Virus record (IMG/VR): IMGVR_UViG_3300006752_002826 | Location: 1 to 31,575 of that record | Source of the DNA: a virus | Strand: one strand, 5' to 3' | DNA length: 31,575 bases | Shown here: positions 18,253 to 30,248 of the stretch, piece after piece | Layout: every line of letters starts with the position of its first letter | How positions within the stretch are numbered: the stretch's first letter is position 1 | Position numbers and translations under genes: made by a program | The notes under the pieces: generated by a model | What the model saw: the letters and a program-made list of their open reading frames with translations, nothing else | Told to the model about the DNA's origin: nothing | Databases searched by the model: none

Positions 18253-18387
18253 ACTGCCCAGATGGCAGAATAATGTATAGTGTTATATACACATAGTGTT
18301 AAGATGTATGTTACACTTAGTGTTAAGTATTCATAGTGTATCATTATAAATATAATTAACACATAGTGCTACTAACACATAGTGTAA
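18253..18387. repeat. Control region: CTGCC-N5-GGCAG dyad plus six CATAGTGTTA-type repeats
   Basis: A dyad CTGCC/GGCAG with a five-base spacer lies at 18254-18268. It is followed by six ten-base elements of the form (C/T)(A/T)TAGTG(T/C)(T/A)(A/T), starting at 18276, 18292, 18316, 18332, 18362 and 18378. Starts are 16, 24, 16, 30 and 16 bases apart, so the elements form three pairs with a 16-base step. Several are themselves palindromic (ACAC-TAT-GTGT, ACACT-A-AGTGT). The cluster lies upstream of the structural operon in AT-rich DNA with no ORF. It may be a set of operators for late gene control, or iterons of a replication origin. A related cluster lies at 29883-29972. Confidence 0.65.
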
Positions 18388-18389
18388 CA

Positions 18390-18614
18390 TCAACTCTTGT
18401 TGTTTTCATCGTACAGATGGCAATACAATTCCCATATCTTGATCTGGACTTCTTCAAGTTTGTATTTAGTGCCGCTACGAGTAATATCACCCCCGATATC
18501 CACTTCTATCTCCTGATATTTATCTATCCATTTCCTTGGCACTGGATAAACTCTGATGTTATTCTTTTCACACCAATTGAAGCAATCCCACTGATCAGAT
18601 CTGTATATATCCAT
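18390..18614 (-). CDS. Hypothetical protein, 74 residues
   Basis: I start at the ATG at 18614 (M-D-I-Y-R-S-D-Q-W-D), because the only longer form needs a TTG at 18662 and would read through a less protein-like stretch. The protein contains W-D-C-F-N-W-C-E-K-N-N-I and V-P-R-K-W-I-D-K-Y-Q-E-I-E-V-D-I, and ends in a helical segment before N-N-K-S. No family is recognised. It sits alone between the repeat cluster and a non-coding stretch, so it may be regulated by that cluster. Confidence 0.55.
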   Translation of the reverse strand: MDIYRSDQWDCFNWCEKNNIRVYPVPRKWIDKYQEIEVDIGGDITRSGTKYKLEEVQIKIWELYCHLYDENNKS

Positions 18615-18662
18615 GGGGCTAAGATATAATGTAAAAAGGTAAATCCAATGTGGCAGTTGCAA

Positions 18663-18966
18663 AAGATTGTCTGTGCAGAGAGTAGACTAATTACCGCAAC
18701 CGACATCTGGTTCGGCAGAGTTCGATATACGCAAGCATTTAACCAATTTTAACAAAACTTTAACACTTGAAGCGATTTAAAGCGATTTAAGCATGGGTAG
18801 GGTCGTTTTGAGGGGTAAGTACCACTCGTATGGATAAAGTCGCTTAGAAGGGCTGTAAATAGTCTTAAATGGGCTGTTTGAATGTATTTAAGAGGCGAAC
18901 CCGTATATACAAACATTAATTAAACCCTTTCAATTGATAGTCAACTAATTAACAAAATAAGGGTAC
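18663..18966. other. Non-coding stretch with small repeats
   Basis: About 300 bases without a convincing gene. It contains TGGCAGTTGCA (overlapping its right-numbered start at 18651-18661), an unusually GC-rich patch at 18690-18730 with a short CCGA/TCGG hairpin, two tandem AGCGATTTAA units at 18771-18790, and one copy of the 20-base repeat ATTTTAACAAAACTTTAACA at 18746-18765. A 55-codon minus-strand ORF (18749-18916) is open here but does not look like a protein. The region probably holds control signals. Confidence 0.4.
18746..18765. repeat. 20-base direct repeat, left copy, flanking the Gp88 cassette
   Basis: The sequence ATTTTAACAAAACTTTAACA is identical to bases 20408-20427 and in the same orientation. 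Its minus-strand reading contains AAGTTTTG, one mismatch from the TAnnTTTG promoter element. At this copy no TTTG lies 20 bases upstream, so promoter activity is doubtful. Confidence 0.7.
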
Positions 18967-18994
18967 AAAAAAACCCCGCTTTTATACGGGGTTA
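18967..18994 (-). terminator. Strong terminator ending the Gp88 cassette
   Basis: On the minus strand AACCCCG pairs with CGGGGTT around TATAAAAG, followed by a run of seven T that overlaps the arm. The hairpin lies about 30 bases after the stop at 19026. It would also form on the plus strand but without a comparable T-run. Confidence 0.85.
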
Positions 18995-19025
18995 ACACAA
19001 ATTAAAATTATTTATTTGGGGTTTT

Positions 19026-19223
19026 CTACACTATAAAATTATTTAAAAAGATATCGTTTGCCATTTGTACATGGTCGTTAATTGTTTCCATATGGTAGAC
19101 GTTGCATTTACTTTGAACCAATTTATTGTAATAGTTGTCGAAATGGTGCAAATTTCTAAAGCGTTTTGTGACCGTTACTTTTTTGCCGTTTGCCATTATG
19201 TAAGATATTTTTTTTGTTTCCAT
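19026..19223 (-). CDS. Hypothetical protein, 65 residues, last gene of the Gp88 cassette
   Basis: The product is basic at the start and middle (METKKISYIMANGKKVTVTK). It then has R-F-R-N-L-H-H-F-D-N-Y-Y-N-K-L-V-Q-S-K-C and a helical end. The F-x-N-x-x-x-F-x-x-Y-x-x-K pattern looks like a small folded beta-beta-alpha protein, but I cannot name a family. It starts five bases after the stop of the Cys-rich gene and ends shortly before the terminator. Codon use is very A/T-rich, like the rest of the cassette and unlike the phage structural genes. Confidence 0.6.
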   Translation of the reverse strand: METKKISYIMANGKKVTVTKRFRNLHHFDNYYNKLVQSKCNVYHMETINDHVQMANDIFLNNFIV

Positions 19224-19228
19224 GGGTT

Positions 19229-19381
19229 TTAATTGTTTTCTGTCGTTAGATTATAAAGGTAATTTTTCCAACATTCAACGCTACAAAAGTGCGGGTTTTG
19301 TGTTGGTTCGTTGCAATGGTCGTTTTTGCAATAGTTAATCAATATATAATTGTCGTTTTGCGGGTTTTCAGGTGAATACAT
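19229..19381 (-). CDS. Small Cys-rich, zinc-finger-like protein, 50 residues
   Basis: This ORF runs from ATG at 19381 to TAA at 19229. Its core is Y-C-K-N-D-H-C-N-E-P-T-Q-N-P-H-F-C-S-V-E-C-W, giving C18-x4-C23-x9-C33-x3-C37, a spacing that suits a single zinc site such as a small treble-clef or MYND/FCS-like finger. Such mini-proteins often act as adaptors for nucleic acid or protein binding. The gene is packed four and five bases from its neighbours, which strongly supports translation. Confidence 0.68.
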   Translation of the reverse strand: MYSPENPQNDNYILINYCKNDHCNEPTQNPHFCSVECWKNYLYNLTTENN

Positions 19382-19385
19382 ATTG

Positions 19386-19547
19386 TTAATTATTTATTGA
19401 ATAGGTAAAACGTTTTAAAATATCATCATCCAATAAGTTCATACAACTTTTGTACAACTTTGTTTTTTTGGGATATCTACAAAATTTAAGATAGGTTTTT
19501 TTTGTTCCTGTTCTTTTATACGTTAGTGTAAATTTATATAAGTACAT
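19386..19547 (-). CDS. Basic hypothetical protein, 53 residues
   Basis: The ORF starts at ATG 19547, 14 bases after the Gp88-like stop and behind an A-rich leader. It ends at TAA 19386, four bases before the next ATG. The protein is basic with a beta-like N-terminus (MYLYKFTLTYKRTGTKKTYL), two cysteines (23 and 35) and an acidic D-D-D near the end. No family is recognised. Its regular spacing in the cassette argues that it is real. Confidence 0.6.
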   Translation of the reverse strand: MYLYKFTLTYKRTGTKKTYLKFCRYPKKTKLYKSCMNLLDDDILKRFTYSINN

Positions 19548-19561
19548 AATATTTGTTTTTT

Positions 19562-20200
19562 TTAGTGGTATACTAAACCAATTTTGTTATTTTCAATGTT
19601 ATAATGTTTACTAGCAAATAAGTCAACCTTTGACGCATTAATAAAACCCGCTTCAATTAGTTCGTTTTCACTCTTGAATATTTTTGTGAACCTATCAACG
19701 TTTTCATTTATTAGGTCAACTTGTTTACCGCTATCGGAAAAAATAAAACTAAAATTTTCGGGTTTTTCATGGTTTTGATCTTTTACCAATTTTATGCTGT
19801 TCGTGTAGCTGTAAAATTTCACGCTTGGCAATTGTTTAGCAATGGTAAACCAATCAAGCAAATATTTTTTCGAGTAATAGTCGCCGCTATCATGCACCCG
19901 TAAAAAATTAACTTTTTTTGCTTTTATAGCGTCCACCATGATTGAAACAAAATTTTCGTCTTTTGTCAATTGGTAGCGTTTTTCAAATGCTGGTTTTACA
20001 TTTCCCCAACTATATGCCCCTTTTTGAGCATAACAAAATTTGATACATTTATCCGCAAATGGGCACGTTAATTTTCCGCTTTGCGTTTTATATGCTGGTA
20101 TACCAAAGTTGAAAACCCGCAAACCAGTTTCTTTACTAGTTTTTTTTAGTTTCCCATTTTGGGTTAAAATTGCCGTATTTAAGTATTTGTTTGATTTCAT
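19562..20200 (-). CDS. Gp88-like protein (cysteine-rich phage/plasmid family of unknown function)
   Basis: The 212-residue protein has the hallmarks of the family named after mycobacteriophage gene product 88. First come an N-terminal K-L-K-K-T-S-K and F-N-F-G-I-P-A. Then there is a cysteine cluster L-T-C-P-F-A-D-K-C-I-K-F-C-Y-A (C46-x5-C52-x3-C56), with K-G-A-Y after it. The motif L-R-V-H-D-S-G-D-Y-Y-S follows at about 100-110, and F-Y-S-Y-T-N-S near 129-135. The three cysteines could hold a metal or Fe-S cluster, and H103-x2-G-D look like active-site residues. The biochemical activity is, as far as I know, not established. The gene is far richer in A/T than the phage core genes and stands in a separate operon, so it was probably acquired as an accessory cassette. 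Confidence 0.75.
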   Translation of the reverse strand: MKSNKYLNTAILTQNGKLKKTSKETGLRVFNFGIPAYKTQSGKLTCPFADKCIKFCYAQKGAYSWGNVKPAFEKRYQLTKDENFVSIMVDAIKAKKVNFLRVHDSGDYYSKKYLLDWFTIAKQLPSVKFYSYTNSIKLVKDQNHEKPENFSFIFSDSGKQVDLINENVDRFTKIFKSENELIEAGFINASKVDLFASKHYNIENNKIGLVYH

Positions 20201-20202
20201 AA

Positions 20203-20328
20203 TTAGTAAATGTAAAAGTTAATAATTTGAGCAAATAACCAAATAAAGCAAAGCGTTAAGAATACCTTGCTAATGTTGTCAATTAACTGAATTGTTTTTT
20301 GTTCTGTTTTGTTTTCTGTCGTTTTCAT
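20203..20328 (-). CDS. Small single-pass membrane protein, 41 residues
   Basis: The ORF runs from ATG 20328 to TAA 20203, leaving two bases before the Gp88-like ATG. A polar N-terminal half (MKTTENKTEQKTIQLIDN) is followed by a hydrophobic stretch at about residues 21-39 (VFLTLCFIWLFAQIINF) and a short end. This suggests one transmembrane helix with the N-terminal tail probably in the cytoplasm. It is the first gene of the cassette. A small membrane protein paired with a metal-site protein hints at an envelope-linked function, but this is inference. Confidence 0.65.
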   Translation of the reverse strand: MKTTENKTEQKTIQLIDNISKVFLTLCFIWLFAQIINFYIY

Positions 20329-20407
20329 TGTTTAAAAGTTTAGTTAGTGTTGAATGTTTACACCCGTAAAAGTAGAAAACCCGTAAAAAAAACAATAGGA
20401 AAAAACC

Positions 20408-20427
20408 ATTTTAACAAAACTTTAACA
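20408..20427. repeat. 20-base direct repeat, right copy
   Basis: ATTTTAACAAAACTTTAACA is repeated exactly at 18746-18765. This copy overlaps the probable cassette promoter. The two copies bracket the cassette, so they may be remnants of insertion by recombination, or merely shared promoter elements. Confidence 0.7.
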
Positions 20428-20446
20428 TTGTTAGAAATGTAACAAA
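20415..20446 (-). promoter_or_regulatory. Promoter of the Gp88 cassette
   Basis: On the minus strand TTTG (20446-20443) is followed after 20 bases by AAGTTTTG (20422-20415), one mismatch from the Bacteroidetes TAnnTTTG element. It lies about 90 bases before the first ATG at 20328 and just after the previous operon's terminator. Confidence 0.5.
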
Positions 20447-20469
20447 GTGCTATGCACGCATAGTAAATG

Positions 20470-20499
20470 AAAAAAAGAAACCCCCAGAAAAAGGGGGTA
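20470..20499 (-). terminator. Terminator of the small-gene operon
   Basis: On the minus strand ACCCCC pairs with GGGGGT around TTTTTCT-type loop bases, followed by TTCTTTTTTT. It lies about 50 bases after the stop at 20552 and directly ahead of the Gp88 cassette promoter. Confidence 0.8.
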
Positions 20500-20557
20500 T
20501 TGAATTTATACCTATTGAATTCACAAGGTATTGAATTTACACCTATTGAATTTACAA
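20496..20557. repeat. Two tandem 31-base repeats with internal half repeats
   Basis: Units 20496-20526 and 20527-20557 differ at two positions. Each unit holds two copies of TATTGAATT(T/C)A, so the array has four half units. It overlaps the last codons of the gene ending at 20552 and the base of the terminator. A role as a binding site is possible. It may also be a replication-slippage product. Confidence 0.75.
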
Positions 20558-21067
20558 TTGTGATGTAAATAATTTTCCATTGAAGGTGAACCACGCTTGA
20601 ACATGATCAAACCAACTATGGATGTACTCTTCAGTTAGTGTAGCCTCAGCATCCTTCCTAGCCTCTTCAACCCATTTATCGTATAGGTGTTTGGCTATAG
20701 TATTAGGATTCTCTTCACCACCATAAATACAGTCGTTAAGTGCCGAGTACAATACCTGATCCATGCAGTATCCGGTAAGTATCCCATCACACTTCCTTAG
20801 CTTAGACACTATCTCAGGCTTCAATATATCGCTGTATTTGGACTTTTTTTTCGTGTGGAGGTATGTATCCCCAATAGTCCAGAAGCATATCTTAAAATCG
20901 CTTATTTTAAGTCCTAGGAGGTCATAGTAGGCAAATAGGCTTTCAAAACACTCATCAGCCCAAAGATATCCATGTTTTATCACTTTATCTCTTTCTTGAT
21001 GTAATGCCTCTATTTGAGCCTCCCTAGATAGGTCTTCGAACCTGTATAATTCAATATCGTCTGTCAT
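20552..21067 (-). CDS. Conserved-type phage protein of unknown function, 171 residues
   Basis: The protein starts with I-E-L-Y-R-F-E-D-L-S-R-E-A-Q-I-E-A-L. This pattern (Y-x-F-x-E-L-S-x-E-A-x-x-x-A) is common at the start of phage and plasmid proteins of unknown function. The body is helical and acidic with several Trp, including W-A-D-E-C-F-E-S-L-F-A-Y-Y and H-V-Q-A-W-F-T-F-N-G-K-L-F at the end. The last codons lie in the tandem repeat. Its ATG overlaps the TAA of the previous gene (TAATG). It is a single-domain accessory gene and no activity can be read. Confidence 0.6.
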   Translation of the reverse strand: MTDDIELYRFEDLSREAQIEALHQERDKVIKHGYLWADECFESLFAYYDLLGLKISDFKICFWTIGDTYLHTKKKSKYSDILKPEIVSKLRKCDGILTGYCMDQVLYSALNDCIYGGEENPNTIAKHLYDKWVEEARKDAEATLTEEYIHSWFDHVQAWFTFNGKLFTSQL

Positions 21068-21267
21068 TATTTCAAAGTAAAATATTTATTGAATATTATT
21101 TCTATAACGGCAACAGATATCTTATCGTAGTTAAGCAACTTTAACAATGAGTCCTGTTCAATATCTATCTTTTGAATCTCGAAGTGGCTCTTCAGGTAGT
21201 TACACCTTTCTAATCTACCCATCCTTTTTATAGATTCAAATTCACTAAAGTCTATTGCTGTTTTCAT
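21067..21267 (-). CDS. Hypothetical protein, 66 residues
   Basis: A small charged helical protein beginning MKTAIDFSEFESIKRMGRLE, with an isoleucine- and leucine-rich C-terminal half ending in Y-F-T-L-K. No family is recognised. It lies in a run of tightly spaced small genes: four bases after the upstream stop, and a one-base TAATG overlap with the next gene. These neighbours are the main support for it. Confidence 0.6.
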   Translation of the reverse strand: MKTAIDFSEFESIKRMGRLERCNYLKSHFEIQKIDIEQDSLLKLLNYDKISVAVIEIIFNKYFTLK

Positions 21268-21271
21268 GATT

Positions 21272-21499
21272 TTATCCTTCTATTTTTTTATGGAGGTAAT
21301 CTTTTATCCTAGCCATCATTTCATGATCAAAAGAATCTATGAATTCGTATGGATCTATGTTAAATGCATATTCTTCATAATCCTCTTCACCTCCAAAGCA
21401 AGTAGCGTCTTCAGTATAAAATTCTACAGTCATACCTCTTGAATTCCTCATGGGAGGTATCACACTTGTAATCTTAACATCTCTATAAGTAGCTTTCAT
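21272..21499 (-). CDS. Hypothetical acidic protein, 75 residues
   Basis: The protein has a short beta-like start (MKATYRDVKITSVIPPMRNS). An acidic middle with C-F-G-G-E-E-D-Y-E-E-Y-A-F follows, and then a helical end (D-H-E-M-M-A-R-I-K-D-Y-L-H-K-K-I-E-G). The acidic, compact character is seen in small phage proteins that mimic DNA or inhibit host enzymes, but nothing specific points to that here. It is coupled to the 28-codon ORF upstream through TAATG. Confidence 0.58.
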   Translation of the reverse strand: MKATYRDVKITSVIPPMRNSRGMTVEFYTEDATCFGGEEDYEEYAFNIDPYEFIDSFDHEMMARIKDYLHKKIEG

Positions 21500-21585
21500 T
21501 ATTGTTTAGTTTTTTTAGTTATTATTTGTCCGTTTAAAGAGTACGTTAGTGTACCATCCTTCCAGTAGATAACAATTGAATCCAT
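21499..21585 (-). CDS. Micro-ORF, 28 residues
   Basis: The ATG at 21585 stands one base after the stop of the 86-residue gene (TAA G ATG), and its TAA shares an A with the next ATG. The product begins MDSIVIYWKDGTLTYSLNG, a beta-hairpin-like stretch, and ends with Lys and Thr. Its fit between two starts and stops argues for translation. Function is unknown. Confidence 0.48.
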   Translation of the reverse strand: MDSIVIYWKDGTLTYSLNGQIITKKTKQ

Positions 21586-21586
21586 C

Positions 21587-21847
21587 TTATTCAAATCTAA
21601 TTGTTTTACCGTCTACCTGAATCCACTTCAGTCTATCAAAAGGAATAGATCTGTATCCCTTAGAGTGCATATCGTATACTGGAATCAATTGCTTTTCCTG
21701 TGGGTTGTATTTAAGTACCCCACCCTTCAGATGCTTTACTACACCTCTACGGCAATTCATAACTCTGAACGAGCCATCTTTCTTGGTGAACCCTGCTGAG
21801 AAGATTTTACCGTCACCTACTTTTTCTAGTAATTCTAAATAAGTCAT
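21587..21847 (-). CDS. Small basic beta-rich phage protein, 86 residues
   Basis: First gene of the second operon. It contains a sequence typical of small phage proteins: K-K-D-G-S-F-R-V-M-N-C-R-R-G-V-V-K-H-L-K-G-G at about 22-43, then Y-D-M-H-S-K-G-Y-R-S-I-P-F-D-R-L near 58-73. The strand-turn-strand layout suggests an SH3-like barrel, possibly RNA- or DNA-binding given the basic face. I do not know an assigned function. A very good promoter stands 28 bases before its ATG. Confidence 0.62.
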   Translation of the reverse strand: MTYLELLEKVGDGKIFSAGFTKKDGSFRVMNCRRGVVKHLKGGVLKYNPQEKQLIPVYDMHSKGYRSIPFDRLKWIQVDGKTIRFE

Positions 21848-21874
21848 GTTTTCTTTGTTTTAATGTTTCCACTA

Positions 21875-21906
21875 CAAACATACAAACTATTTTTGCAACT
21901 GCCAAA
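21875..21906 (-). promoter_or_regulatory. Promoter of the small-gene operon
   Basis: On the minus strand TTTG (21906-21903), 20 bases, then TATGTTTG (21882-21875): a full match to the Bacteroidetes promoter consensus. The spacer begins GCAGTTGCAAAAAT, nearly the same as in the promoter at 31163-31194. The terminator of the preceding operon lies directly upstream. Confidence 0.85.
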
Positions 21907-21914
21907 TAGAATGT

Positions 21915-21949
21915 AAAAAAAAGAAAGCCACTCTTTCAAGCGGCTCTCA
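21915..21949 (-). terminator. Terminator of the replication-terminase operon
   Basis: On the minus strand GAGAGCCGCT pairs with AGTGGCTTTC (ten pairs including two G-T) around TGAAAG, followed by eight T. It lies 60-95 bases after the large terminase stop. The interval up to that stop (21950-22011) shows no gene; it contains a TATATTTG at 22007-22000 without a proper upstream element. Confidence 0.85.
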
Positions 21950-22011
21950 ACTTCTAACTAAAAACAAACAATTTTTACATATGATAAACTTAAACACTTC
22001 AAATATACGAA

Positions 22012-23226
22012 TTATTTTATAATATACATTCCCTTCGGAACAGTTCTTTCTAAAACGTATTGAATCGCATACCTAGCCGCATCGATCCCATGGTTAAAAG
22101 TATCAATAGGTTTCATGCCTTTGACGTGCCAAGCATAGTTATTGAATTCCTTAACCAGATTTTCCCCCTGTACATTTATATTGTAATCCTGCATAAGTGC
22201 AATACCGGTAAGAATACTACCCTTCTTTTTTATTGTAGGTGTTAAATTTAACCCTCTAGTATTAAGCTCGGCAATAAGTCTAGGTTCACTGTTATCACAA
22301 ACCACCAAACGTTTACCTGCGTGACGAACACACAAATCATATATATTAGATGTCACAAGACCCTTCTTGTAGAACATCTCTTTTAACCATATAATTTTTC
22401 TTTTTTTATCTACGGCAACTTCAACTAAAACTGACTCGTCTCGGGAGAATCCGAAATCCAAGCCAAAGATCGATTCAACATCATTATTGAATTCACCAAT
22501 TTGCCAGTCAGTAAATATAACTCCCTCAGCTCTCTGAAGCCACCCACCAAGGATTTGATGCCTGTATTTATCTGGTCTACGCTCCTTCATATCCTCCAAC
22601 TGGTCTACGAAAGACTCAGATAGATTATCGATGTTGTCCTCGTATGTTGTATGGATATAAGTTACGTTGTCTTTAGTGCCGTTAAACCCATCAGGTATTC
22701 CTCTGTTCTGGAAGAACCTCTGGTATATCCAATGTTCTTTTGTTGTAGGGTTTAGGATTAACAGGACACGATTCCTAGCGTCCTTAGAACGTATGGAGTA
22801 GTCTATCTTATCGAATGTCTCTTCATCCATAAGCTCCTCTGCTTCGTCCAATACAAAAGTGTTAATCCCACTAATCGATTTAAGTTTCGCTGTCTGATCT
22901 CCAGATGCTGTTTTGATACCTGAGAAATATATAAAGCTCTTTGTGTGCTTATTTTTTATATCATACTTAGTAACATCAAACATATCATTAGCCCCCATCA
23001 AATCTATCTTTTCTAGGAATTCAGGGATAATACTCATAGATGCTGAGCTCATGGTATATCGTGTAAACAATACACCATTATTTTTCTCGTATGTCAATAG
23101 GTTTAAGAATACTGTAACGGCAAAAGACTTACCTGAGCCTCTTCCACCTGTTATAACAAAATATCTGCTATCACTATCGAATAAAGATGAGTATTTAGGA
23201 CTTAGATCTAAAGATTCCATCGACAT
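22012..23226 (-). CDS. terL: Terminase large subunit
   Basis: The motor that cuts phage DNA and pumps it into the prohead, docking on the portal. I start at ATG 23226, one codon inside the longest ORF, whose first codon is TTG. In this numbering the Walker A motif G-G-R-G-S-G-K-S is at 27-34 and Walker B F-V-L-D-E-A-E-E at 124-131. The RNase H-like nuclease has G-L-D-F-G-F-S-R-D-E-S at 255-265 (first catalytic Asp), V-V-C-D-N-S-E-P near 308-315, and the last Asp in H-G-I-D-A-A-R-Y around 379-386. About 404 residues is normal for PBSX/SPP1-like terminases. It is the last gene before a terminator and overlaps the preceding nuclease gene by some 30 bases. It lies in the early operon, separate from the portal. 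Confidence 0.93.
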   Translation of the reverse strand: MSMESLDLSPKYSSLFDSDSRYFVITGGRGSGKSFAVTVFLNLLTYEKNNGVLFTRYTMSSASMSIIPEFLEKIDLMGANDMFDVTKYDIKNKHTKSFIYFSGIKTASGDQTAKLKSISGINTFVLDEAEELMDEETFDKIDYSIRSKDARNRVLLILNPTTKEHWIYQRFFQNRGIPDGFNGTKDNVTYIHTTYEDNIDNLSESFVDQLEDMKERRPDKYRHQILGGWLQRAEGVIFTDWQIGEFNNDVESIFGLDFGFSRDESVLVEVAVDKKRKIIWLKEMFYKKGLVTSNIYDLCVRHAGKRLVVCDNSEPRLIAELNTRGLNLTPTIKKKGSILTGIALMQDYNINVQGENLVKEFNNYAWHVKGMKPIDTFNHGIDAARYAIQYVLERTVPKGMYIIK

Positions 23227-23593
23227 CAAAATTATTAAAGTTATAACCGTATTTAGAGTTTTTGTCAGAATTCAACCTAATGCCCTGCATACTTCCTGTG
23301 TTTTTTATGATAAAAAATCCCTTGAAGTGCTCCGAATAAACAGCAAACAGATCAATGAATTCGTTAGTATATTTAGATTTAATTCCATTGCAGAGTGCAA
23401 CTTGTATTGAATTTCTATCAGTAGGAATTTTACTGGAATATTTCACCTGAACCTTATACAGCTTACCCCCGCCCTCTACAATTATATCATATACAGAAGA
23501 GTCTAGCATTGGTTTACTAGGATGTATACCTCTACTTATGCATTCACAAGAAAACAGGTACTCAGCATACATTCCCTTCTCATTACTGTCCAT
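23195..23593 (-). CDS. PD-(D/E)XK endonuclease-like protein, 132 residues
   Basis: The protein begins with G-M-Y-A-E-Y-L-F-S-C-E-C-I-S-R-G, the helix with a conserved Glu typical of this fold. Then come S-S-V-Y-D-I-I-V-E at about 32-40 (Asp) and K-V-Q-V-K-Y-S-S at 47-54 (Q-V-K, the variant of E-x-K). This is the arrangement of the PD-(D/E)XK endonuclease family related to group I intron endonucleases and to archaeal Holliday junction resolvases. The rest is a beta and charged tail. The stop lies inside the terminase start. Phages of this type use such enzymes for branch cutting before packaging, or for host DNA breakdown. Which it is here is open. Confidence 0.68.
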   Translation of the reverse strand: MDSNEKGMYAEYLFSCECISRGIHPSKPMLDSSVYDIIVEGGGKLYKVQVKYSSKIPTDRNSIQVALCNGIKSKYTNEFIDLFAVYSEHFKGFFIIKNTGSMQGIRLNSDKNSKYGYNFNNFDVDGIFRSKS

Positions 23594-24011: not shown

Positions 24012-24108
24012 TATTTTCTAGTTTTTCTATTCGGTGAAGAGCAACCATGACAGCTTGTTGTAGTAGCTTGATATCGTGTTGCATTTTTACGAGTGTAGAT
24101 TCTTTCAT
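23938..24108 (-). CDS. Small coiled-coil-like protein, 56 residues, overlapping a nuclease gene
   Basis: The ATG at 24108 overlaps the stop of the previous micro-ORF as ATGA. The product starts MKESTLVKMQHDIKLLQQAV, continues with an L-H-R-I-E-K-L-E heptad-like helix, and ends in a Gly/Ser/Glu tail that overlaps 74 bases of the following nuclease gene. The first 30 codons lie in DNA that no other gene covers and look protein-like. The tail could merely be read-out of the nuclease frame. A small helical partner of the terminase would fit its position. Confidence 0.52.
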   Translation of the reverse strand: MKESTLVKMQHDIKLLQQAVMVALHRIEKLENNEPVSGGSESGEGSGEISTATDSK

Positions 24109-24185
24109 TTCTTCTTCTCTAGCTCGGGTTTATATCTGTATCCTAGTATTGGATTTATATTATAATTCCAAAAGTCCATTGGCAT
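24105..24185 (-). CDS. Micro-ORF, 26 residues
   Basis: ATG at 24185 follows the stop of the terminase-type gene by one base (TAG T ATG), and its TGA overlaps the next ATG (ATGA). The product begins MPMDFWNYNINPILGYRYKP and is followed by E-L-E-K-K-K. The aromatic, Pro-containing content is not what random AT-rich DNA tends to give. Function is unknown. Confidence 0.48.
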   Translation of the reverse strand: MPMDFWNYNINPILGYRYKPELEKKK

Positions 24186-24186
24186 A

Positions 24187-24570
24187 CTACTTCCCTGAGG
24201 TAGCATCCCCTTTGTCGTTGTTTTTAACTTCTTCATGTTCTACATCTATTGTTTTTGGCTTAGTAAAATTTATAACCGGAATATTTACATTTGTATTAAC
24301 GTCTATTTGTTGCATCTCTTTTGGTTTACCATATCGGTAGTTCATTATGTAATCCCAATGTTTAGCAGAGCCCTCCTTAGCTAACTTAGCAACTTCCATC
24401 CACATCTTCTCTTCACTGCCAAATATCTTTTTTAGTGCCGCTAAAGTCAGATTATTCATATCCTTATCCTTGATACTAATCTTTCTTGGTCGACCTTGAC
24501 CACGACTCACGCCTTTTACCGCACCATTATTCTTTCTACCGTCTTGTTTATTTGGCTCGTCTTCTTTCAT
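24187..24570 (-). CDS. Putative terminase small subunit or DNA-packaging protein
   Basis: The 127-residue protein has a polar start (G-R-K-N-N-G-A-V-K-G) and the motif R-G-Q-G-R-P-R-K-I near 23-31. The central helical region has W-M-E-V-A-K-L-A-K-E-G-S-A-K-H-W-D-Y-I-M-N-Y-R-Y-G-K-P, and the tail is acidic. The G-R-P-x-K element, followed by helices and the phrase Y-x-Y-G-K-P, is what I recognise in small terminase proteins of Bacteroidetes phages. It stands in the operon four genes ahead of the large terminase. The stop of the DnaA-domain gene overlaps its start (ATGA). The role is probable. Confidence 0.55.
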   Translation of the reverse strand: MKEDEPNKQDGRKNNGAVKGVSRGQGRPRKISIKDKDMNNLTLAALKKIFGSEEKMWMEVAKLAKEGSAKHWDYIMNYRYGKPKEMQQIDVNTNVNIPVINFTKPKTIDVEHEEVKNNDKGDATSGK

Positions 24571-25043
24571 TTCACCTCTTCGAATTTCTTAACGGGCTTA
24601 TCAAGAAACTTATGGGAGTAGCCCCCTTTCTTCATTGTTGCCTTCATGAAAGCGTTAAGCGTTTCTATCTTGTTGTATTCCTCAAGTAAATCATGATACT
24701 TGTTTTCTAGATCATGCAATTGTTCCTTCCAGTAATCTACAGGATCAGTGAATTCCCTCATCTCATCCTTGTCGTATTTTTTTATTAGTTCAGAATACAG
24801 ATCCATTAAATCCCTTTCATAAACACTAACAACATTATCAAACACCCTTAAGCCATGAAGAACCGTAGCATGATCCCTGTTGACAGACCTGCCTATAGAA
24901 GCTAAGCTGTGTCTGGTAACCTTCTTACATATCTTGAAGTACAATGATCTGGCATAAACATTATCTCTTCTTCTAGATTTTGATGATAGGTCTATTCCTG
25001 TTTTAAATTCAATCTCGTTCTTCAGTGACTCTAGTATCTTCAT
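24567..25043 (-). CDS. Protein with DnaA domain IV (DNA-binding domain) without the ATPase part
   Basis: I start at ATG 25043 (M-K-I-L-E-S-L-K-N-E-I), which has an A-rich leader and sits directly before the domain. The upstream in-frame ATG at 25097 would add 18 residues. The first 75 residues read like the C-terminal domain of DnaA: T-G-I-D-L-S-S-K-S-R-R-R-D-N-V-Y-A-R, then S-L-A-S-I-G-R-S-V-N-R-D-H-A-T-V-L-H-G. R-D-H-x-T-V-x-x-G/A is the signature that contacts DnaA boxes. The rest is a coiled-coil region with no AAA+ domain. It may compete with the host initiator for DNA, or it may bind the phage's own origin. It overlaps the 68-residue gene upstream by 35 bases. Confidence 0.7.
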   Translation of the reverse strand: MKILESLKNEIEFKTGIDLSSKSRRRDNVYARSLYFKICKKVTRHSLASIGRSVNRDHATVLHGLRVFDNVVSVYERDLMDLYSELIKKYDKDEMREFTDPVDYWKEQLHDLENKYHDLLEEYNKIETLNAFMKATMKKGGYSHKFLDKPVKKFEEVK

Positions 25044-25215
25044 TTTTGTTTTTTTTATATTTAACGAATGCATCAACGACTCCTTGACAACATTCATAAA
25101 ATTCTATCTCCTTATAGTATTCAAGTAAGTGTCGAACATCGGTTTCCTGTATTATTCCCAGTTCCAATGAGATCAATATATCATTATAACATTCTTCCTT
25201 ACTACTATAAATCAT
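25009..25215 (-). CDS. Hypothetical helical protein, 68 residues
   Basis: A short acidic to neutral helical protein starting MIYSSKEECYNDILISLELG, with Y-Y-K-E-I-E-F-Y-E-C-C-Q-G-V-V-D-A-F-V-K-Y in the middle and a polar end. Two adjacent Cys are notable. No family is recognised. It overlaps the exonuclease stop by four bases (ATGA type) and the DnaA-domain gene by 35. The overlap makes its exact extent uncertain, but the first 50 codons are in otherwise unused DNA. Confidence 0.55.
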   Translation of the reverse strand: MIYSSKEECYNDILISLELGIIQETDVRHLLEYYKEIEFYECCQGVVDAFVKYKKNKNEDTRVTEERD

Positions 25216-25979
25216 AATGTATCCTCATATGCAAAATCACCCAGATCCATATCCTTGTTAATGAAATAGCTCTTGTATATATTAACAGCCTTTTGAACAT
25301 CATCCCTACCTCTCTCGTAGCTAGATTCAGATACATTATAAAACCCTAACACTCCAGTTCCTTTTTCCACGGCAATGAACCAGAAGTTTTCCGGCTTTAT
25401 ACCAAAAAGTTCACAGTATATAAATGCCTGACAATGATAACCCCACTTCCAAAATGAACTCTTAAAGTTCCTTACATCTGTAGTGGTCTTTAGGTCTACA
25501 ATGTACCCGTCTCCAAGTATGTCAGCCTTAGCTCTAAATGGAACATCCCAAAGATCTCCAATAGCAGGAACTTCTTTCTCTGTGTGATTAAGCATATCCA
25601 CCGCCCTAGAGTTATCATAGAATGCCGTAGCCAAGCGTTCCACATTATACCTGTCTCCTTCCGTAAAGACTCTTCCATGCTCAGCTCTGGCATCCTTGAA
25701 TTTATTAGTGTTTCTTCTAGCGTCAACAAAATACTGTTTCCTGTATATATGGGGTTCAAGTATTGCTGTGTGGAAAAGCCACCCAAAATCAAGAGCGGAA
25801 CTGTTCTCCTCCTTAGTGGTAAAGGATTGACTGTATGATTTAGGAGAGTCTAATAATCTCTTCACACTACTACTGGATAAAGCGTTCTTTCCTAGGTAGT
25901 TGTAATAGAATTCATCATCCATCATGAATGCTAGAATCTCTTCTTTACTCCAGAATTTACCGTCTAGTGTTGTTATCAT
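25212..25979 (-). CDS. PD-(D/E)XK exonuclease (RecB/Exo8-like)
   Basis: The 255-residue protein has the layout of phage exonucleases related to the RecE/exodeoxyribonuclease VIII nuclease domain. It shows S-S-S-S-V-K-R-L-L-D-S-P-K-S-Y near residues 35-49 and A-L-D-F-G-W-L-F-H-T-A-I-L-E at 62-75 (His70). P-F-R-A-K-A-D-I-L-G (Asp153) follows, with V-D-L-K-T-T-T-D (D162 and K164) at 161-168, and Y-H-C-Q-A-F-I-Y with Gln184. The enzyme would chew one strand of DNA ends to give single-stranded DNA, on which the ERF-like protein of the same operon can act. Together they make a phage recombination pair. Its ATG overlaps the micro-gene upstream by 23 bases. Confidence 0.85.
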   Translation of the reverse strand: MITTLDGKFWSKEEILAFMMDDEFYYNYLGKNALSSSSVKRLLDSPKSYSQSFTTKEENSSALDFGWLFHTAILEPHIYRKQYFVDARRNTNKFKDARAEHGRVFTEGDRYNVERLATAFYDNSRAVDMLNHTEKEVPAIGDLWDVPFRAKADILGDGYIVDLKTTTDVRNFKSSFWKWGYHCQAFIYCELFGIKPENFWFIAVEKGTGVLGFYNVSESSYERGRDDVQKAVNIYKSYFINKDMDLGDFAYEDTL

Positions 25980-26106
25980 TTTTTTCCTTTATGTATTGTT
26001 CATACTCTTGTTCCATCCAATGTAGATGGATCATTTGTGCCTCAGTAAACCACTCCTCTGGATTCCCGAATGCTAACCTTTCTAGTTTTTCTTTTGTCTT
26101 CTCCAT
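25957..26106 (-). CDS. Small helical protein, 49 residues
   Basis: ATG at 26106 shares its A with the TAA of the membrane protein gene, and the ORF runs to TAA 25957 inside the exonuclease start. The product has K-L-E-R-L-A-F-G-N-P-E-E-W-F and then H-L-H-W-M-E-Q-E-Y-E-Q-Y-I-K, and looks like a two-helix protein. Cover of 126 otherwise unused bases and the TAATG link make it convincing. Its function is unknown. Confidence 0.65.
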   Translation of the reverse strand: MEKTKEKLERLAFGNPEEWFTEAQMIHLHWMEQEYEQYIKEKNDNNTRR

Positions 26107-26288
26107 TATCTAACGTATTTAAGTAATGATCTAATTGCTTTTTCTAAGCTGTTAAGCGTAAACTTTAATGGAGCTTCAATGATCAAATATATAATCATTG
26201 CAATCCCCTCTATTATAAACAAAAAGAACAATAGCAGAAAAGCCGCAGTAATTTTTAAGGCGTTTAGAATCAATCGTACTAACTTCAT
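26106..26288 (-). CDS. Small membrane protein, 60 residues
   Basis: A hydrophobic run at about residues 8-35 (ALKITAAFLLLFFLFIIEGI followed by AMIIYLII) is enough for one long or two tightly turned membrane helices. A basic end follows (S-L-E-K-A-I-R-S-L-L-K-Y-V-R). A promoter stands directly upstream (26305-26334). It may be an early membrane-acting protein, for instance one that blocks superinfection, but nothing specific shows this. Confidence 0.6.
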   Translation of the reverse strand: MKLVRLILNALKITAAFLLLFFLFIIEGIAMIIYLIIEAPLKFTLNSLEKAIRSLLKYVR

Positions 26289-26304
26289 TCCTATTTGTTT
26301 TACT

Positions 26305-26334
26305 CAAATATACGAGGAATAATTATATTAACAA
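26305..26334 (-). promoter_or_regulatory. Internal promoter in the early operon
   Basis: On the minus strand TTG (26334-26332), 19 bases, then TATATTTG (26312-26305), which matches the Bacteroidetes consensus. It lies 17 bases before the ATG at 26288 in non-coding DNA, so exonuclease, DnaA-domain and terminase genes can be transcribed independently of the upstream part. Confidence 0.75.
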
Positions 26335-26344
26335 TGGATGTTGA

Positions 26345-26491
26345 TTATTTTTTAGGATTAAAGTTGTCAGACCATATCGATTGACAAACCCCAAACCTCT
26401 GATCACGATCTTTGAATTCAGACATCATAGCAGCATTATTCATGCATCTACGATTGAAATCTTTCTTTTCTTCATACTTCTTTGGTTTCAT
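26345..26491 (-). CDS. Small protein with R-C-M...Q-R-F-x-V-C motif, 48 residues
   Basis: The ORF starts at ATG 26491, inside the previous gene's last codons, and stops at TAA 26345. It reads D-F-N-R-R-C-M-N-N-A-A-M-M-S-E-F-K-D-R-D-Q-R-F-G-V-C-Q-S-I-W. The R-C-M-x-(6)-E-F-x-D-x-x-Q-R-x-x-V-C-x-x-x-W pattern is familiar from C-terminal parts of phage portal and protease proteins and from small stand-alone phage proteins. Two cysteines and the aromatic ends suggest a tiny metal-bound or disulfide fold. Function is unknown. Confidence 0.65.
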   Translation of the reverse strand: MKPKKYEEKKDFNRRCMNNAAMMSEFKDRDQRFGVCQSIWSDNFNPKK

Positions 26492-26729
26492 GTTTAGTGG
26501 CATATTTCTGTGATTTTAGTTTTTCAATGTATAGTGTCGCATCCATTAACTCCTGCTGGAGATGATTTAGGAATTCGTAAAACCCGTCAGGAGATTCCTC
26601 AAGGGTAGTGCCGTATTTGGTTATTCCTATAATGGAACGCATATCGTATTCTTTTTTCACTTTCTCCACGATAGGATCTACCTTTCCGGTAGTATCATCG
26701 CTAGTCCAGTACTCTTGATCTATTGGCAT
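26472..26729 (-). CDS. Small MazG-like phage protein, 85 residues (tentative)
   Basis: After a short polar start, the protein has I-I-G-I-T-K-Y-G-T-T-L-E-E-S at about 33-46 and F-L-N-H-L-Q-Q-E-L-M-D-A-T-L-Y-I-E-K-L at 53-71. The combination K-Y-G-x-T-L ... H-x-Q-x-E-x-x-D-A-x-x-Y is found in phage proteins related to MazG-type nucleotide pyrophosphohydrolases, in which acidic residues hold Mg2+. The protein is shorter than full MazG domains, so this may be a minimal or degenerate version. It overlaps the next ORF by 20 bases. Confidence 0.45.
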   Translation of the reverse strand: MPIDQEYWTSDDTTGKVDPIVEKVKKEYDMRSIIGITKYGTTLEESPDGFYEFLNHLQQELMDATLYIEKLKSQKYATKHETKEV

Positions 26730-26754
26730 ATTTATATAAGTAACAAAATTTCAG

Positions 26755-27174
26755 TTAATTGTCGTACTCGCTGTACACACGCTCCAACTTCTTGTGGACG
26801 TTATTAAGAAAACAACTAGTGCAGGATGTTGTATTCGCTTTATCATTGAATACCCTGTTATATATATCCACTAGCTCCTTCTGCTTCTCTACGCTTATAC
26901 TATTCTTATTAGAGGTAAAGTACTCAGATAGGTACTTATACTCATCCTCTAGCAAGCAGTTGGGTTTCTGGTATGGAAATATCTTATTGAGAATTTCACG
27001 TCTGCCACTGCATCCGCAATCTTCACCGGCAATGAATTTAACCGCCCTATCTATACCTACGGCACTCAATACCTTTTCTACGGTATCACCTATCCCTGTT
27101 GATTTAGTCCTCCCTCGACCTTTTGTATTCTTCGTATTCTTCTTTGAGCTCACTTTTGACTTTTGCTTTGCCAT
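26755..27174 (-). CDS. Conserved phage protein with Cys pairs, 139 residues
   Basis: The N-terminal 25 residues are basic (K-V-S-S-K-K-N-T-K-N-T-K-G-R-G-R). Next comes G-D-T-V-E-K-V-L-S-A-V-G-I-D-R-A, then A-G-E-D-C-G-C-S-G-R-R-E-I-L-N-K-I-F-P-Y. Near the end is C-T-S-C-F-L-N-N. The C-x-C and C-x-x-C pairs may form one zinc site. I have seen this layout in early regions of flavobacterial phages but know no function. It overlaps the sigma-like gene by 71 bases; the basic start could be extra, since later in-frame starts are absent until the core. Confidence 0.58.
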   Translation of the reverse strand: MAKQKSKVSSKKNTKNTKGRGRTKSTGIGDTVEKVLSAVGIDRAVKFIAGEDCGCSGRREILNKIFPYQKPNCLLEDEYKYLSEYFTSNKNSISVEKQKELVDIYNRVFNDKANTTSCTSCFLNNVHKKLERVYSEYDN

Positions 27175-27643
27175 TTGTTAATGTGTTAAATATTGAACTT
27201 AAACTTATTCTGGTTTCTTTTGCTATAGAACGCATACTCTTGCTCCAATAAAAGTAAACATCCCATAATTTCTTATCATACCAATACCAATCACTTGTTA
27301 TCAGATCTATCTTATCTACGAGTGCATTGAATCTCTCTTCTGCCTCCATGTTATGATCTATGTGTGGGGCATCAACATCAGGATCTATGACAAAATGAGA
27401 TCCAGTTATTTTATGGAATCTACTTAGATACAGGTTGCGTAATGTAACATAAACATAGAAAGTGTTGACCTCATCTTCTTTATAGAGGATCTTGTTCTTA
27501 CTCTCTACATATTTATCAATACGAATATACATCTGCTGAACCAATTCATTAGCCTCATCGTTTGTGACACCAAACGACTTAGCCATATTGATCCAATCCT
27601 GATGCTTATCAGCTAATAAATCTATTAATCTCTTGGAATCCAA
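27104..27643 (-). CDS. Sigma-factor-like protein (ECF type)
   Basis: The 179-residue protein has an N-terminal helical region of region-2 type. It shows A-N-E-L-V-Q-Q-M-Y-I-R-I at about 31-42 and T-F-Y-V-Y-V-T-L-R-N-L-Y-L-S-R-F at 61-76, the place where sigma region 2 binds the -10 element. A linker rich in Asp and His follows. The C-terminal helix-turn-helix is region-4-like: S-M-R-S-I-A-K-E-T-R-I-S-L-S-S-I-F-N at 136-153. Such a protein could direct host RNA polymerase to phage promoters. The structural operon shows no TAnnTTTG promoter upstream, which makes that attractive. The homology is weak, and it may instead be a DNA-binding regulator of another kind. Confidence 0.6.
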   Translation of the reverse strand: MDSKRLIDLLADKHQDWINMAKSFGVTNDEANELVQQMYIRIDKYVESKNKILYKEDEVNTFYVYVTLRNLYLSRFHKITGSHFVIDPDVDAPHIDHNMEAEERFNALVDKIDLITSDWYWYDKKLWDVYFYWSKSMRSIAKETRISLSSIFNTLTNGKAKVKSELKEEYEEYKRSRED

Positions 27644-27789
27644 TAGTGAAAAGATATGCCTATTATACCTATCATAAACTGAACTAAATGCTCAGTCTCA
27701 TCTGTTTCTTGGTTATCTGGATCTAGGTCTGTATTCCAGTAGTTTAGACCAAGCATGAATCCGTAGATTGGAAAGAATTGTAAATACAT
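27625..27789 (-). CDS. Small membrane protein with two hydrophobic segments, 54 residues
   Basis: ATG at 27789 shares its A with the TAA of the RusA-like gene (TAATG), and the ORF stops at 27625 within the sigma-like gene's start. Residues 1-16 are aromatic and hydrophobic (MYLQFFPIYGFMLGLN). An acidic loop N-T-D-L-D-P-D-N-Q-E-T-D follows, and then a second hydrophobic segment (V-Q-F-M-I-G-I-I-G-I-S-F) at about 37-48. This suggests a hairpin in the membrane. The whole ORF lies in a space otherwise lacking a gene. Function is unknown. Confidence 0.65.
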   Translation of the reverse strand: MYLQFFPIYGFMLGLNYWNTDLDPDNQETDETEHLVQFMIGIIGISFHYWIPRD

Positions 27790-28178
27790 TATAGTGGTGT
27801 TATGGTTGCTTCTACTCTTGGGTTTTGTTTATCTATTCCATTGTAAGTTCCTTTTATCTCAACAACTATTGAGGTATCATCAGCCTCTATGCATCCCTTT
27901 TCAACTAGTGCATCTTGAAAATACTTGTCTACAACGGATATAATATTCATCAAATCCCTTTTTCTTTTATCTGGTGCATAATAGCTGTATTCTATTTTAC
28001 ATTTACCCTTTATTTTGAAATCAAGCTGAGGTTCTATTTGATCCTTGAACGTTCTCTTGATTTTGTTGTTGGTTTGATAGTGCCAATTCCTATACTGGTT
28101 TAAATTCAAATAATACCTAGTAATCTTGGTTTGGATTACAACTGGTAGTTCTAGTTTATATTGATTTTCTAATTTCAT
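27789..28178 (-). CDS. RusA-like Holliday junction resolvase
   Basis: The 129-residue protein matches the RusA fold used by phages to cut four-way junctions. It starts with a strand region around N-L-N-Q-Y-R-N-W-H-Y, then K-C-K-I-E-Y-S-Y-Y-A. The diagnostic R-K-R-D-L-M-N-I-I-S-V-V-D-K-Y-F-Q-D-A-L follows at 72-91, and then I-E-A-D-D-T near 97-102. Asp75, Asp84 and Asp100/101 correspond to the conserved acidic residues that bind metal. Branches left by recombination or replication would be removed here before DNA is packaged. Its start overlaps the primase-helicase end by 23 bases. Confidence 0.85.
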   Translation of the reverse strand: MKLENQYKLELPVVIQTKITRYYLNLNQYRNWHYQTNNKIKRTFKDQIEPQLDFKIKGKCKIEYSYYAPDKRKRDLMNIISVVDKYFQDALVEKGCIEADDTSIVVEIKGTYNGIDKQNPRVEATITPL

Positions 28179-29880
28179 CTATTTTTGTGAATGGAGTAAA
28201 GTTACTAAAATAATACCTTTGTTCCCTAACACTAAAGTTTATATCACTTACCTCCTGTGGAAAACCTACTAATTTCTGCTTCTTAATCTTCTGTGAACCG
28301 AACACTACAGAAGTATCACTCCACTCAACCGCTCTATTCGGTCTCCACACAAACATAACATTGTCAGCTTTATCAGCAAAAGTACCTCCACCTTTTATTC
28401 TATTGATATCTGGCTTTGGATATCTGCCGTCATCACCTTTAATTGGTGTTACTTGGTGTGCTACTAAGTGTATTGAAATATTATTATCTAAGGCAAACCT
28501 TTTCAGTTCAGACATGAATCTGGATATGTATAAATCCTCACGCTCACCGCTTCTCATTCTATGTTGTACAGTGTTATACGGGTCTATAATCAAAGATCTA
28601 ATACCCTTTGTTTTAACTAGGAATCTAGCCCTGTCAAATATCTCCTCTAAGGTGAACCCTGCTTTTGGATATATAACGAAGAAATGCTTCTTGACGAATT
28701 CCATGGCATTCTCGTATTCAGTCAGACTCATTTGATGTGAGTAATGTGGATCGGCACTCTTGCCCATATACATCTCAATAATATCGTTAAAGAAATCATT
28801 CATAGGCATATTCTCAGGAGAAAACACACCAAATCTCCAACCATCATGAAAAGCCTTAATTGTGGCTAATTGATTCACAAATATTGATTTCCCTTCGTTC
28901 TGGTAACCCGTCCATATATTAACCTCTCCATTTCTCCAAGTCCAAGCCTTGTCTATAGAAGGAATATAAGTAGTAGTGCCTCTTTCCTGACCATTATGAA
29001 AAGAATCCAACATAGAACTCTTTACGTCATCAATAGAGAATATACCCTCTACCTTTGGATTTAAGGCTGTTTTCAGACGATTTCTGAGACTTTCAGTGCC
29101 TTCTGCTATAAGTACCTCATTAGCGTCCTTAAACGGGCTAAAATCGACTAATAAGCACTTATCTGCACCAAACCGCCTTACGAGCTCTTTTTCTAATACT
29201 CTGCCATTTTCATCGTTGTCTGTTGCTACATATATTGTTTTTGCCGTTGAAAATAAATCCCAACAGGTGTTTAAGCATTCGAGCTTCTTGTCTATGTTCT
29301 TGTCACCCTTATTTGGAGCACCCATGTTTACAGAAGTGTGGAAATCTACTCCGGCAACCTCCCAAGACAATGAATCCATTTCACCCTCACATATAACAAT
29401 TGTATCTTGATCCTTACATTTATCGTAGTTATACACTACGGGTTCAGCATCCTTAGACTGTATAAATCTTTTGCCGTCAATATATCTAGTCTTTGTGTTA
29501 ATCATTTTCCCATTTACAAAGTATGGGAATATAATAGCCTTGTCATCTCTTGTTGAGACAATCTTGTTAGCGTCAATAACCTCATCTGTGATAGCCCTCT
29601 TCTTGAGGAAATCCCTACCCTTTTCAGTTATTCTAGCCATGTTATCTTTCTTGGGGGCTTTGTATACTTTTATTTCTTCCATTGGATTGTTTGTTTTAAC
29701 AGAACCACTCCATCCACACTTGTGGCAATGATAAAGTCCTGAGTTAGTGTTGATAGACAAGCAGGTGTCTTTCCAATTCTCTTTACCCATCTGAATGCAC
29801 TTTGGGCATTTAACTTTCTGTTGATTGGAATTACCCTTTATATCTATTCCTAAATTCTGTAAATTGTTTATAGTATCCAT
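28156..29880 (-). CDS. Primase-helicase (T7 gp4-like)
   Basis: The 574-residue protein joins primase and replicative helicase. Its N-terminal zinc site is C25-x2-C28 and C52-x2-C55 (K-C-P-K-C, H-C-H-K-C). The TOPRIM domain has I-V-I-C-E-G-E-M-D at 161-168 with the catalytic Glu165, A-T-D-N-D-E-N-G at 219-226, and K-D-A-N-E at 251-255. The DnaB-like ATPase core has Walker A G-Y-Q-N-E-G-K-S at 325-332, Walker B S-L-I-I-D-P-Y-N at 429-436 and H-L-V-A-H-Q at 471-476. It primes DNA synthesis and opens the fork. No phage DNA polymerase is seen in this window, so host polymerase is probably used unless a gene lies outside. Confidence 0.92.
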   Translation of the reverse strand: MDTINNLQNLGIDIKGNSNQQKVKCPKCIQMGKENWKDTCLSINTNSGLYHCHKCGWSGSVKTNNPMEEIKVYKAPKKDNMARITEKGRDFLKKRAITDEVIDANKIVSTRDDKAIIFPYFVNGKMINTKTRYIDGKRFIQSKDAEPVVYNYDKCKDQDTIVICEGEMDSLSWEVAGVDFHTSVNMGAPNKGDKNIDKKLECLNTCWDLFSTAKTIYVATDNDENGRVLEKELVRRFGADKCLLVDFSPFKDANEVLIAEGTESLRNRLKTALNPKVEGIFSIDDVKSSMLDSFHNGQERGTTTYIPSIDKAWTWRNGEVNIWTGYQNEGKSIFVNQLATIKAFHDGWRFGVFSPENMPMNDFFNDIIEMYMGKSADPHYSHQMSLTEYENAMEFVKKHFFVIYPKAGFTLEEIFDRARFLVKTKGIRSLIIDPYNTVQHRMRSGEREDLYISRFMSELKRFALDNNISIHLVAHQVTPIKGDDGRYPKPDINRIKGGGTFADKADNVMFVWRPNRAVEWSDTSVVFGSQKIKKQKLVGFPQEVSDINFSVREQRYYFSNFTPFTKIDEIRKSI

Positions 29881-29882
29881 AT

Positions 29883-29921
29883 TAGTGTTACACTATTTAG
29901 TATATAACATGATGTTATATA
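29883..29921. repeat. Two palindromes between winged-helix and primase genes
   Basis: A 13-base palindrome TAGTGT-T-ACACTA lies at 29883-29895, and a perfect one with ten-base arms TATATAACAT-G-ATGTTATATA at 29901-29921. The DNA to the right, up to 29950, is almost pure A/T with two more TATAACA words. The TAGTGTTA word is that of the repeat cluster at 18276-18387. The site lies right upstream of the primase-helicase ATG at 29880 and probably controls that gene or serves replication. Confidence 0.68.
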
Positions 29922-29951
29922 TTTTATTTATTATATAACAAGTGTATAACA

Positions 29952-30248
29952 TTATACTGCCACTGTGGCAGTTACAGAAGGATAGATTCGTCTCTCTCTA
30001 CCGTTTTTTCCTATGTATTTCGTTTTACGTGTTAAATAGCCTCTCTCTTCGAGTTTATTTAGAATTCTATACATAGACCTGTCTGATATGCTTAAAGTCT
30101 CGCAAATCGCTCTATTTGAAGCGTAGCAGTACCCCCTTTGCTTACTCAATGACTCTATATGTGATAATACAGCTTTTTCCCTTAACGTCATGTCTTTGTC
30201 CATTGTTGTTAAATCTATATTTAAGTATCTAGTCTTCTTTGTTTTCAT
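29952..30248 (-). CDS. Winged-helix DNA-binding protein (replication initiator or regulator type)
   Basis: The 98-residue protein carries one winged helix-turn-helix: L-R-E-K-A-V-L-S-H-I-E-S-L at about 22-34, Y-A-S-N-R-A-I-C-E-T-L-S-I-S-D-R-S-M-Y-R-I-L-N-K-L-E at 42-67, then E-R-G-Y-L-T-R and a basic wing K-N-G-R-E-R-R-I-Y. This resembles the helix-turn-helix domain seen in phage replication initiators and in HTH_36-type proteins. Its last codons contain the CTGCC-N5-GGCAG dyad, and the palindromes follow at once, so the protein may bind its own 3' region. The gene stands first after the hairpin element and before the primase-helicase, as expected for an initiator or switch protein. Confidence 0.7.
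   Translation of the reverse strand: MKTKKTRYLNIDLTTMDKDMTLREKAVLSHIESLSKQRGYCYASNRAICETLSISDRSMYRILNKLEERGYLTRKTKYIGKNGRERRIYPSVTATVAV
29956..29972. promoter_or_regulatory. Perfect dyad ACTGCCAC-T-GTGGCAGT
   Basis: An inverted repeat with eight-base arms and a one-base centre lies inside the last codons of the winged-helix gene. The core CTGCC-N5-GGCAG has the same spacing as the dyad at 18254-18268. The half-site GGCAGTTRCA also appears in both early promoters (21875-21906 and 31163-31194). Confidence 0.65.

Follow-up and report, generated by a model that had tools for sequence, protein, structure and literature searches.

Phage-specific repeat arrays at two distant loci match within a phage genome and may serve as paired replication origins

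Bacteriophage SPP1 has two replication origins about 13 kb apart, which contain direct repeats and an AT-rich unwinding element; oriL lies inside the initiator gene, and gp38 binds both origins (PMC6316719). By analogy, this oriL/oriR system with gp38 (G38P) is the closest parallel that we can offer for two loci in IMGVR_UViG_3300006752_002826, a viral record of 31,575 bases from IMG/VR that is referred to below, at its full length, as the window and whose genes lie on the minus strand. One locus, L1, is situated before the structural genes and the other, L2, before the primase-helicase gene, and each combines an array of short repeats with a dyad, CTGCC-N5-GGCAG. As in SPP1, the same kind of repeats is present at two distant loci (about 11-15 kb apart in the phages studied here, or roughly 12,000 bases), both loci have an AT-rich stretch that would unwind easily according to its predicted stability, and one locus is found at the putative initiator gene beside the helicase while the other is found among the late genes. 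In contrast to SPP1, the repeats are inverted and completely different between relatives, the candidate initiator is a winged helix of 98 amino acids only, and a primase-helicase replaces the loader and the DnaB-type helicase.

Other described systems share parts of this arrangement. The plasmid initiators of the RepA type (4pql, 4pt7 and 5kbj) are repeat-binding initiators and, according to structural modelling, have the same winged-helix DNA-binding fold as our candidate. However, the candidate has no further domains, its arrays are present at two loci and its fold match to RepA is nearly tied with matches to other winged helices. The O-like phage initiators (PHROG 428, 270 and 678) match the winged-helix domain in sequence, whereas in our case only the DNA-binding domain is present and the repeats are located outside the gene. 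In phage lambda the origin is located within the O gene, which can be compared to the position of one of the dyads inside the winged-helix gene of the window. Finally, GafA, the regulator of RcGTA, is a dimer that uses a DnaA-like DNA-binding domain outside chromosome initiation and controls structural genes. The window also encodes a DnaA-domain protein, but this protein is not tied to the arrays and does not have the other domains of GafA.

The original prediction for this DNA placed two dyads with identical spacing at L1 and L2. An exact pattern search returned exactly these two matches in the window and none in 100 shuffled sequences (0 expected). The L1 dyad (CTGCCCAGATGGCAG, 18254-18268) forms the gene-proximal edge of its array; about 87 bp separate it from the start codon of the first gene of the structural operon (17492-18181, minus strand), which lies directly downstream of L1 and is conserved in the array-bearing records. 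The second locus, with the L2 dyad (CTGCCACTGTGGCAG, 29957-29971), had been placed between the winged-helix gene and the primase-helicase gene. L2 indeed directly precedes the primase-helicase gene (28156-29880, minus strand; PHROG 239, 2e-78; Toprim and DnaB_C domains), just as L1 precedes the structural operon, but its dyad is located inside the winged-helix coding sequence, in the last codons at the 3′ end.

The L1 array (18274-18389) consists of six palindrome-like elements of the CATAGTG type: TGTATAGTGTTA (18274-18285), ACACATAGTGTTA (18289-18301), TTACACTTAGTGTTA (18311-18325), TTCATAGTGTATC (18330-18342), TAACACATAGTGCTA (18357-18371) and TAACACATAGTGTAACA (18373-18389), with an AT-rich gap at 18343-18356. 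The steps between their centres are 16, 30, 16, 24 and 16.5 bases, which corresponds to three pairs with a 16-base step, as was proposed earlier. The AT-rich array of L2 (29881-29951) contains the two elements described before, TAGTGTTACACTA (29883-29895) and a palindrome with ten-base arms, TATATAACAT/ATGTTATATA (29901-29921), as well as an AT-rich stretch (29922-29938) and the element AAGTGTATAAC (29940-29950). When L1 itself was excluded, the 91-bp stretch of the window that was best covered by the 8-mers of L1 was L2. The two blocks had also been described as similar in inverted orientation. Within the window this could be reproduced: the 70 array-facing bases of L1 scored 48 against L2 when inverted and 32 when not inverted, with 34 as the best of 300 shuffles, and the two loci agree at 13 of 15 positions in GGCAG(A/T)ATAATGT... 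However, several other phages show a better match without inversion, as the left half of their L1 aligns directly to L2 over about 90-110 bp. Those among them with dyads at both loci have a dyad-proximal right part of L1 that aligns to L2 in inverted orientation.

Judged by the terminase, which is about 54% identical, the closest annotated relatives are the Nonlabens phages P12024L and S. These relatives, together with the promoter type described below, suggest that the marine phage family of the window probably infects flavobacteria. The primase-helicase and the first structural gene, used as separate queries, each gave 80 loci; 24 records were matched by both, and 20 of these were fetched. 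Gene order is constant across the fetched records (winged helix, L2, primase-helicase, DnaA-domain protein, terminase, small gene, L1, structural genes). A search for the two-locus layout in related phages was successful, as it recurs at the same positions in about 20 records, each locus being an AT-rich array of short and mostly palindromic repeats that is usually located beside a dyad. With up to two mismatches allowed, 16 of the 20 related records have the L1 dyad, 64-77 bp ahead of the same structural gene, and 7 of the 20 have the L2 dyad in the 3′ end of the winged-helix gene, with the array just downstream as in the window. In record G022 the array is about 1 kb away from the winged-helix gene. 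The cultured phages P12024L and S share genes with the window without having this two-locus anatomy, and the same applies to Tenacibaculum phage JQ, for which gene order alone was compared; no cultured relative with the twin-locus anatomy was found. One record (G028, locus L061) has the usual replication genes, but its terminase and structural region are only distantly related and an array was found at neither locus; it is possibly a recombinant or a chimeric contig.

The repeat sequences vary by phage, for instance TACACTTAGTGTA in G006, TATACAATGTACTATA in G007 and GATACATGTTATA in G023. Motif finding by expectation maximisation in each phage yielded motifs of low information, with the exception of G006, whose top eight matches outside L1 were all in L2, and an 8-mer test was used instead. 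For each of 14 non-redundant phages, the 8-mers of L1 were compared with the L2 of the same phage, and the covered shares of L2 summed to 5.82. When the loci were swapped between phages, the mean was 3.09 and the maximum 5.29, and none of 100,000 permutations reached the observed value. Where it can be read, the spacing of the repeats is alike between phages, even though their sequences are unrelated. In G006 the steps are 19, 16, 29, 19 and 19 at L1 and 19, 19, 30, 19 and 19 at L2, and the L1 of G007 has steps of 19, 16, 30, 17 and 19, despite repeats that are unrelated to those of G006. Since the repeats differ among phages yet match within one phage, both loci are most likely recognised by a single specificity that acts in trans. 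The comparison between phages thus gives good support to the suggestion in the original prediction that one protein binds both.

A likeness without function that was kept by common descent would also produce matching arrays, and the arrays are very AT-rich, with some L2 arrays being almost pure AT. We regard this explanation as extremely unlikely, because the phage-specific repeats contain G and C and match more within a phage than between phages, and because the spacing was retained while the sequence changed. Moreover, L1 changed between G006 and G007 (nucleotide identity of 0.63-0.68), whereas its flanking genes stayed alike (0.81-0.92).

The predicted duplex stability sets the two loci apart from the remaining DNA. 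Of 21 records, 20 had their least stable 60 bp within one of the two loci, the window in its L2 array, and L1 and L2 were the two least stable sites in 14 of 21. Together with the SPP1 precedent, this fits the earlier idea that the two loci define an origin. We tentatively favour the view that they are matched cis-elements, read by a winged-helix protein resembling an initiator, and that they act as paired replication origins in the style of SPP1. Each locus would offer short phage-specific inverted repeats around AT-rich and easily melted DNA, usually edged by a dyad similar to CTGCC-N5-GGCAG. The small winged-helix protein would bind the repeats at L1 and L2, after which the AT-rich DNA would melt at both loci. 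This would result in one origin beside the initiator and primase-helicase genes and another before the late genes.

The winged-helix protein (29952-30248, minus strand; 98 amino acids) contains an HTH_36 domain (Pfam PF13730, 3e-14) and matches PHROG 428, a replication initiation family (5e-13). Its structural model has the fold of the RepA initiator domain (Z of about 10), although the matches to other winged helices differ by no more than 1-2 Z. The protein ends just after the winged helix and lacks an additional C-terminal region for recruitment of the replication machinery. The pair G006 and G007, in which the arrays differ, was used to narrow down the possible readers. Their nucleotide identity is 0.55-0.75 across the genes for the single-strand binding (SSB) like protein and the winged helix, L2 and the 5′ part of the primase-helicase gene, and we read this pattern, together with that around L1, as natural block exchange. 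Protein families were filtered for presence in nearly all records, conservation where the arrays are the same and less than 93% identity in G006/G007. The families that passed include the SSB-like protein, the winged helix, the primase-helicase, a sigma-like protein, an exonuclease, one structural protein and small uncharacterised proteins. Two of these, the winged helix and the sigma-like protein, are recognisable as proteins that bind DNA sequence-specifically, and none of the others is. By elimination, the winged helix is the best candidate and most likely the reader of the arrays. When whole-protein identity was compared with repeat similarity, no family stood out after correction for the core genes; the winged helix ranked slightly higher than the DnaA-domain protein, although its gene is linked to L2. 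The small SSB-like protein (30354-30608, minus strand) has a DGLPF C-terminus like the tip of a single-strand binding protein and gave no trustworthy family match; it diverged in G006/G007 along with the winged helix.

The DnaA-domain protein (24567-25043, minus strand) had been proposed as a second possible binder. It evolves fast and consists of a lone DnaA domain IV extended by a long C-terminal helix (Bac_DnaA_C, PF08299, 5e-13; profile match to 1j1v, 1e-15), and its model (pLDDT 90) matches DnaA domain IV in 1j1v and 3pvp (Z of 14.3). Binding of this protein to the arrays, either as an origin or as a promoter array, would be in line with its predicted fold, in which the C-terminal helix of 40 residues might allow dimerisation, and with its fast evolution, which resembles that of the repeats. 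In addition, its base-contact positions are altered: the equivalents of Arg399 and His434 are retained, but Thr435 is mostly replaced by Ala and the equivalents of Pro423 and Asp433 are variable, so that the set of base-contact residues listed for DnaA (PMC7561715) is not kept. Nevertheless, we consider this protein a distinctly unlikely reader. In 24 phage pairs with winged helices more than 90% identical and L2 arrays 91-100% identical, the DnaA-domain alleles are only 21-61% identical, and G003 and G005 share 97% of L1 with DnaA-domain proteins that are 60% identical. DnaA boxes (TTWTNCACA) were not enriched in the arrays of 15 phages (19 observed, 23.4 expected). Given the allele swaps with unchanged arrays and the lack of box enrichment, we rejected the protein as the setter of the repeat sequence. 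The presence of its gene does not discriminate, since it is found in every record that reaches far enough and array-less phages carry it too. The DnaA-domain alleles are exchanged among near-identical phages, and among the conserved early genes this one varies most.

A host protein could also read the arrays, in which case the repeat differences would reflect different hosts. This would account for matching loci without a co-varying phage protein. We find it very unlikely, as the G006/G007 difference at L2 runs into the adjacent phage genes and as the sites of host global DNA-binding proteins are usually conserved.

Several results weigh against paired origins that are read by the winged helix. 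The main one is that the core of the recognition helix (R57, T58 and R61) and several wing residues are nearly invariant, while the repeats vary widely; one might guess that such residues would suit the conserved dyad better. L040 and L046 have the same array despite winged-helix proteins that are only 80% identical, and the partial correlation between winged helix and L1 is small (0.19). The L2 array is missing from one subclade, in some phages the L2 repeats are degenerate or almost pure AT, and G006 is the exception in the predicted stability. Furthermore, in a rank-correlation test from which core-gene similarity was removed, L1-L2 matching was 0.18 compared to a 95% null of 0.16. This stricter test barely exceeds the null, so part of the L1-L2 signal follows relatedness.

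The dyad points to a further explanation. As had been supposed, it is present at both loci, but its half-site GGCAGTT(G/A)(C/G)A is more widespread and was found 23 times on the gene strand and 26 times on the other strand in 21 records, compared to 0-1 in controls. A promoter class consisting of TTGGCAGTT(G/A)(C/G)A and then TAnnTTTG gave 13 strict matches in the 21 records and none in the reversed control. In the window, strict matches that include the half-site are located at 21875-21905 (TTGGCAGTTGCA...TATGTTTG, minus strand), just after an intrinsic terminator downstream of the terminase gene (21923-21948, minus strand), and at 31163-31193 before the Erf gene (TTGGCAGTTACA...TAGATTTG, minus strand). 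An inverted half-site (18652-18661, plus strand) precedes the small gene before L1 and has a counterpart position in several relatives. Half-sites in the window are present at 31191, 21903 and 18652, and also within coding sequence. With its half-site found at further promoters of these phages, the dyad is not exclusive to L1 and L2; on sequence grounds it is part of a broader phage promoter element and does not identify the twin loci on its own.

The arrays could also form a transcription switch, in which one phage regulator acts at both and controls the primase-helicase and late operons, for example by repressing one and activating the other, with the dyad being the promoter-box part of a late promoter. 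We take this as a serious rival with a real, if lesser than even, chance of being correct. Both arrays directly precede large same-strand operons, and in several phages the last repeat is about 97 bp (L1) or 50 bp (L2) away from the start codon. The L1 dyad of several relatives lies about 20 bases before a TAnnTTT-like box, which is the same distance as in the promoter class. GafA, with its DnaA-like DNA-binding domain, activates the structural genes of a gene transfer agent (PMC9638019). On the other hand, no clear promoter was found in the window's own L1 or in the L2 leaders, and the arrays are limited to two loci whereas the promoter box is more widespread. An operator also does not explain the extreme AT-richness of L2, which persists even where the repeats are lost. 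A scan for promoters of the E. coli type gave no more matches than expected by chance. As the data do not decide between this switch and the paired origins, we put only limited confidence in either. The coupling of replication to late genes that was suggested earlier is possible; in relatives, L1 abuts a promoter-like element.

If the paired origins are correct, the two-locus repeat specificity might turn over quickly, with both loci changing together under one initiator and forming origin specificity groups, and L1, joined to a late promoter, might link replication initiation to late-gene expression. We rate this extended proposal as rather unlikely. The relatives would provide a natural series of matched protein-DNA pairs with a similar layout and many sequences, from which the rules of initiator specificity could be read. 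Origins and a promoter class can likewise be predicted for uncultured marine phages, for which neither had been described, and the arrangement suggests that exchange of an origin block between phages needs the distant matching site to change too.

Among the other features of the window, the sigma-70/ECF-like protein (27104-27643, minus strand) is a candidate regulator that is conserved in 20 of 20 compared records. Its match to NCBIfam TIGR02937 (1.9e-5) is weak, being below the curated cutoff, and the protein is possibly a phage sigma factor. An Rfam search gave no match, a tRNA search found none, and the GC skew, in which a single coding strand dominates, gave no origin signal. Near small genes, at 20496-20557, there are two tandem direct repeats of 31 bases that are 94% alike.

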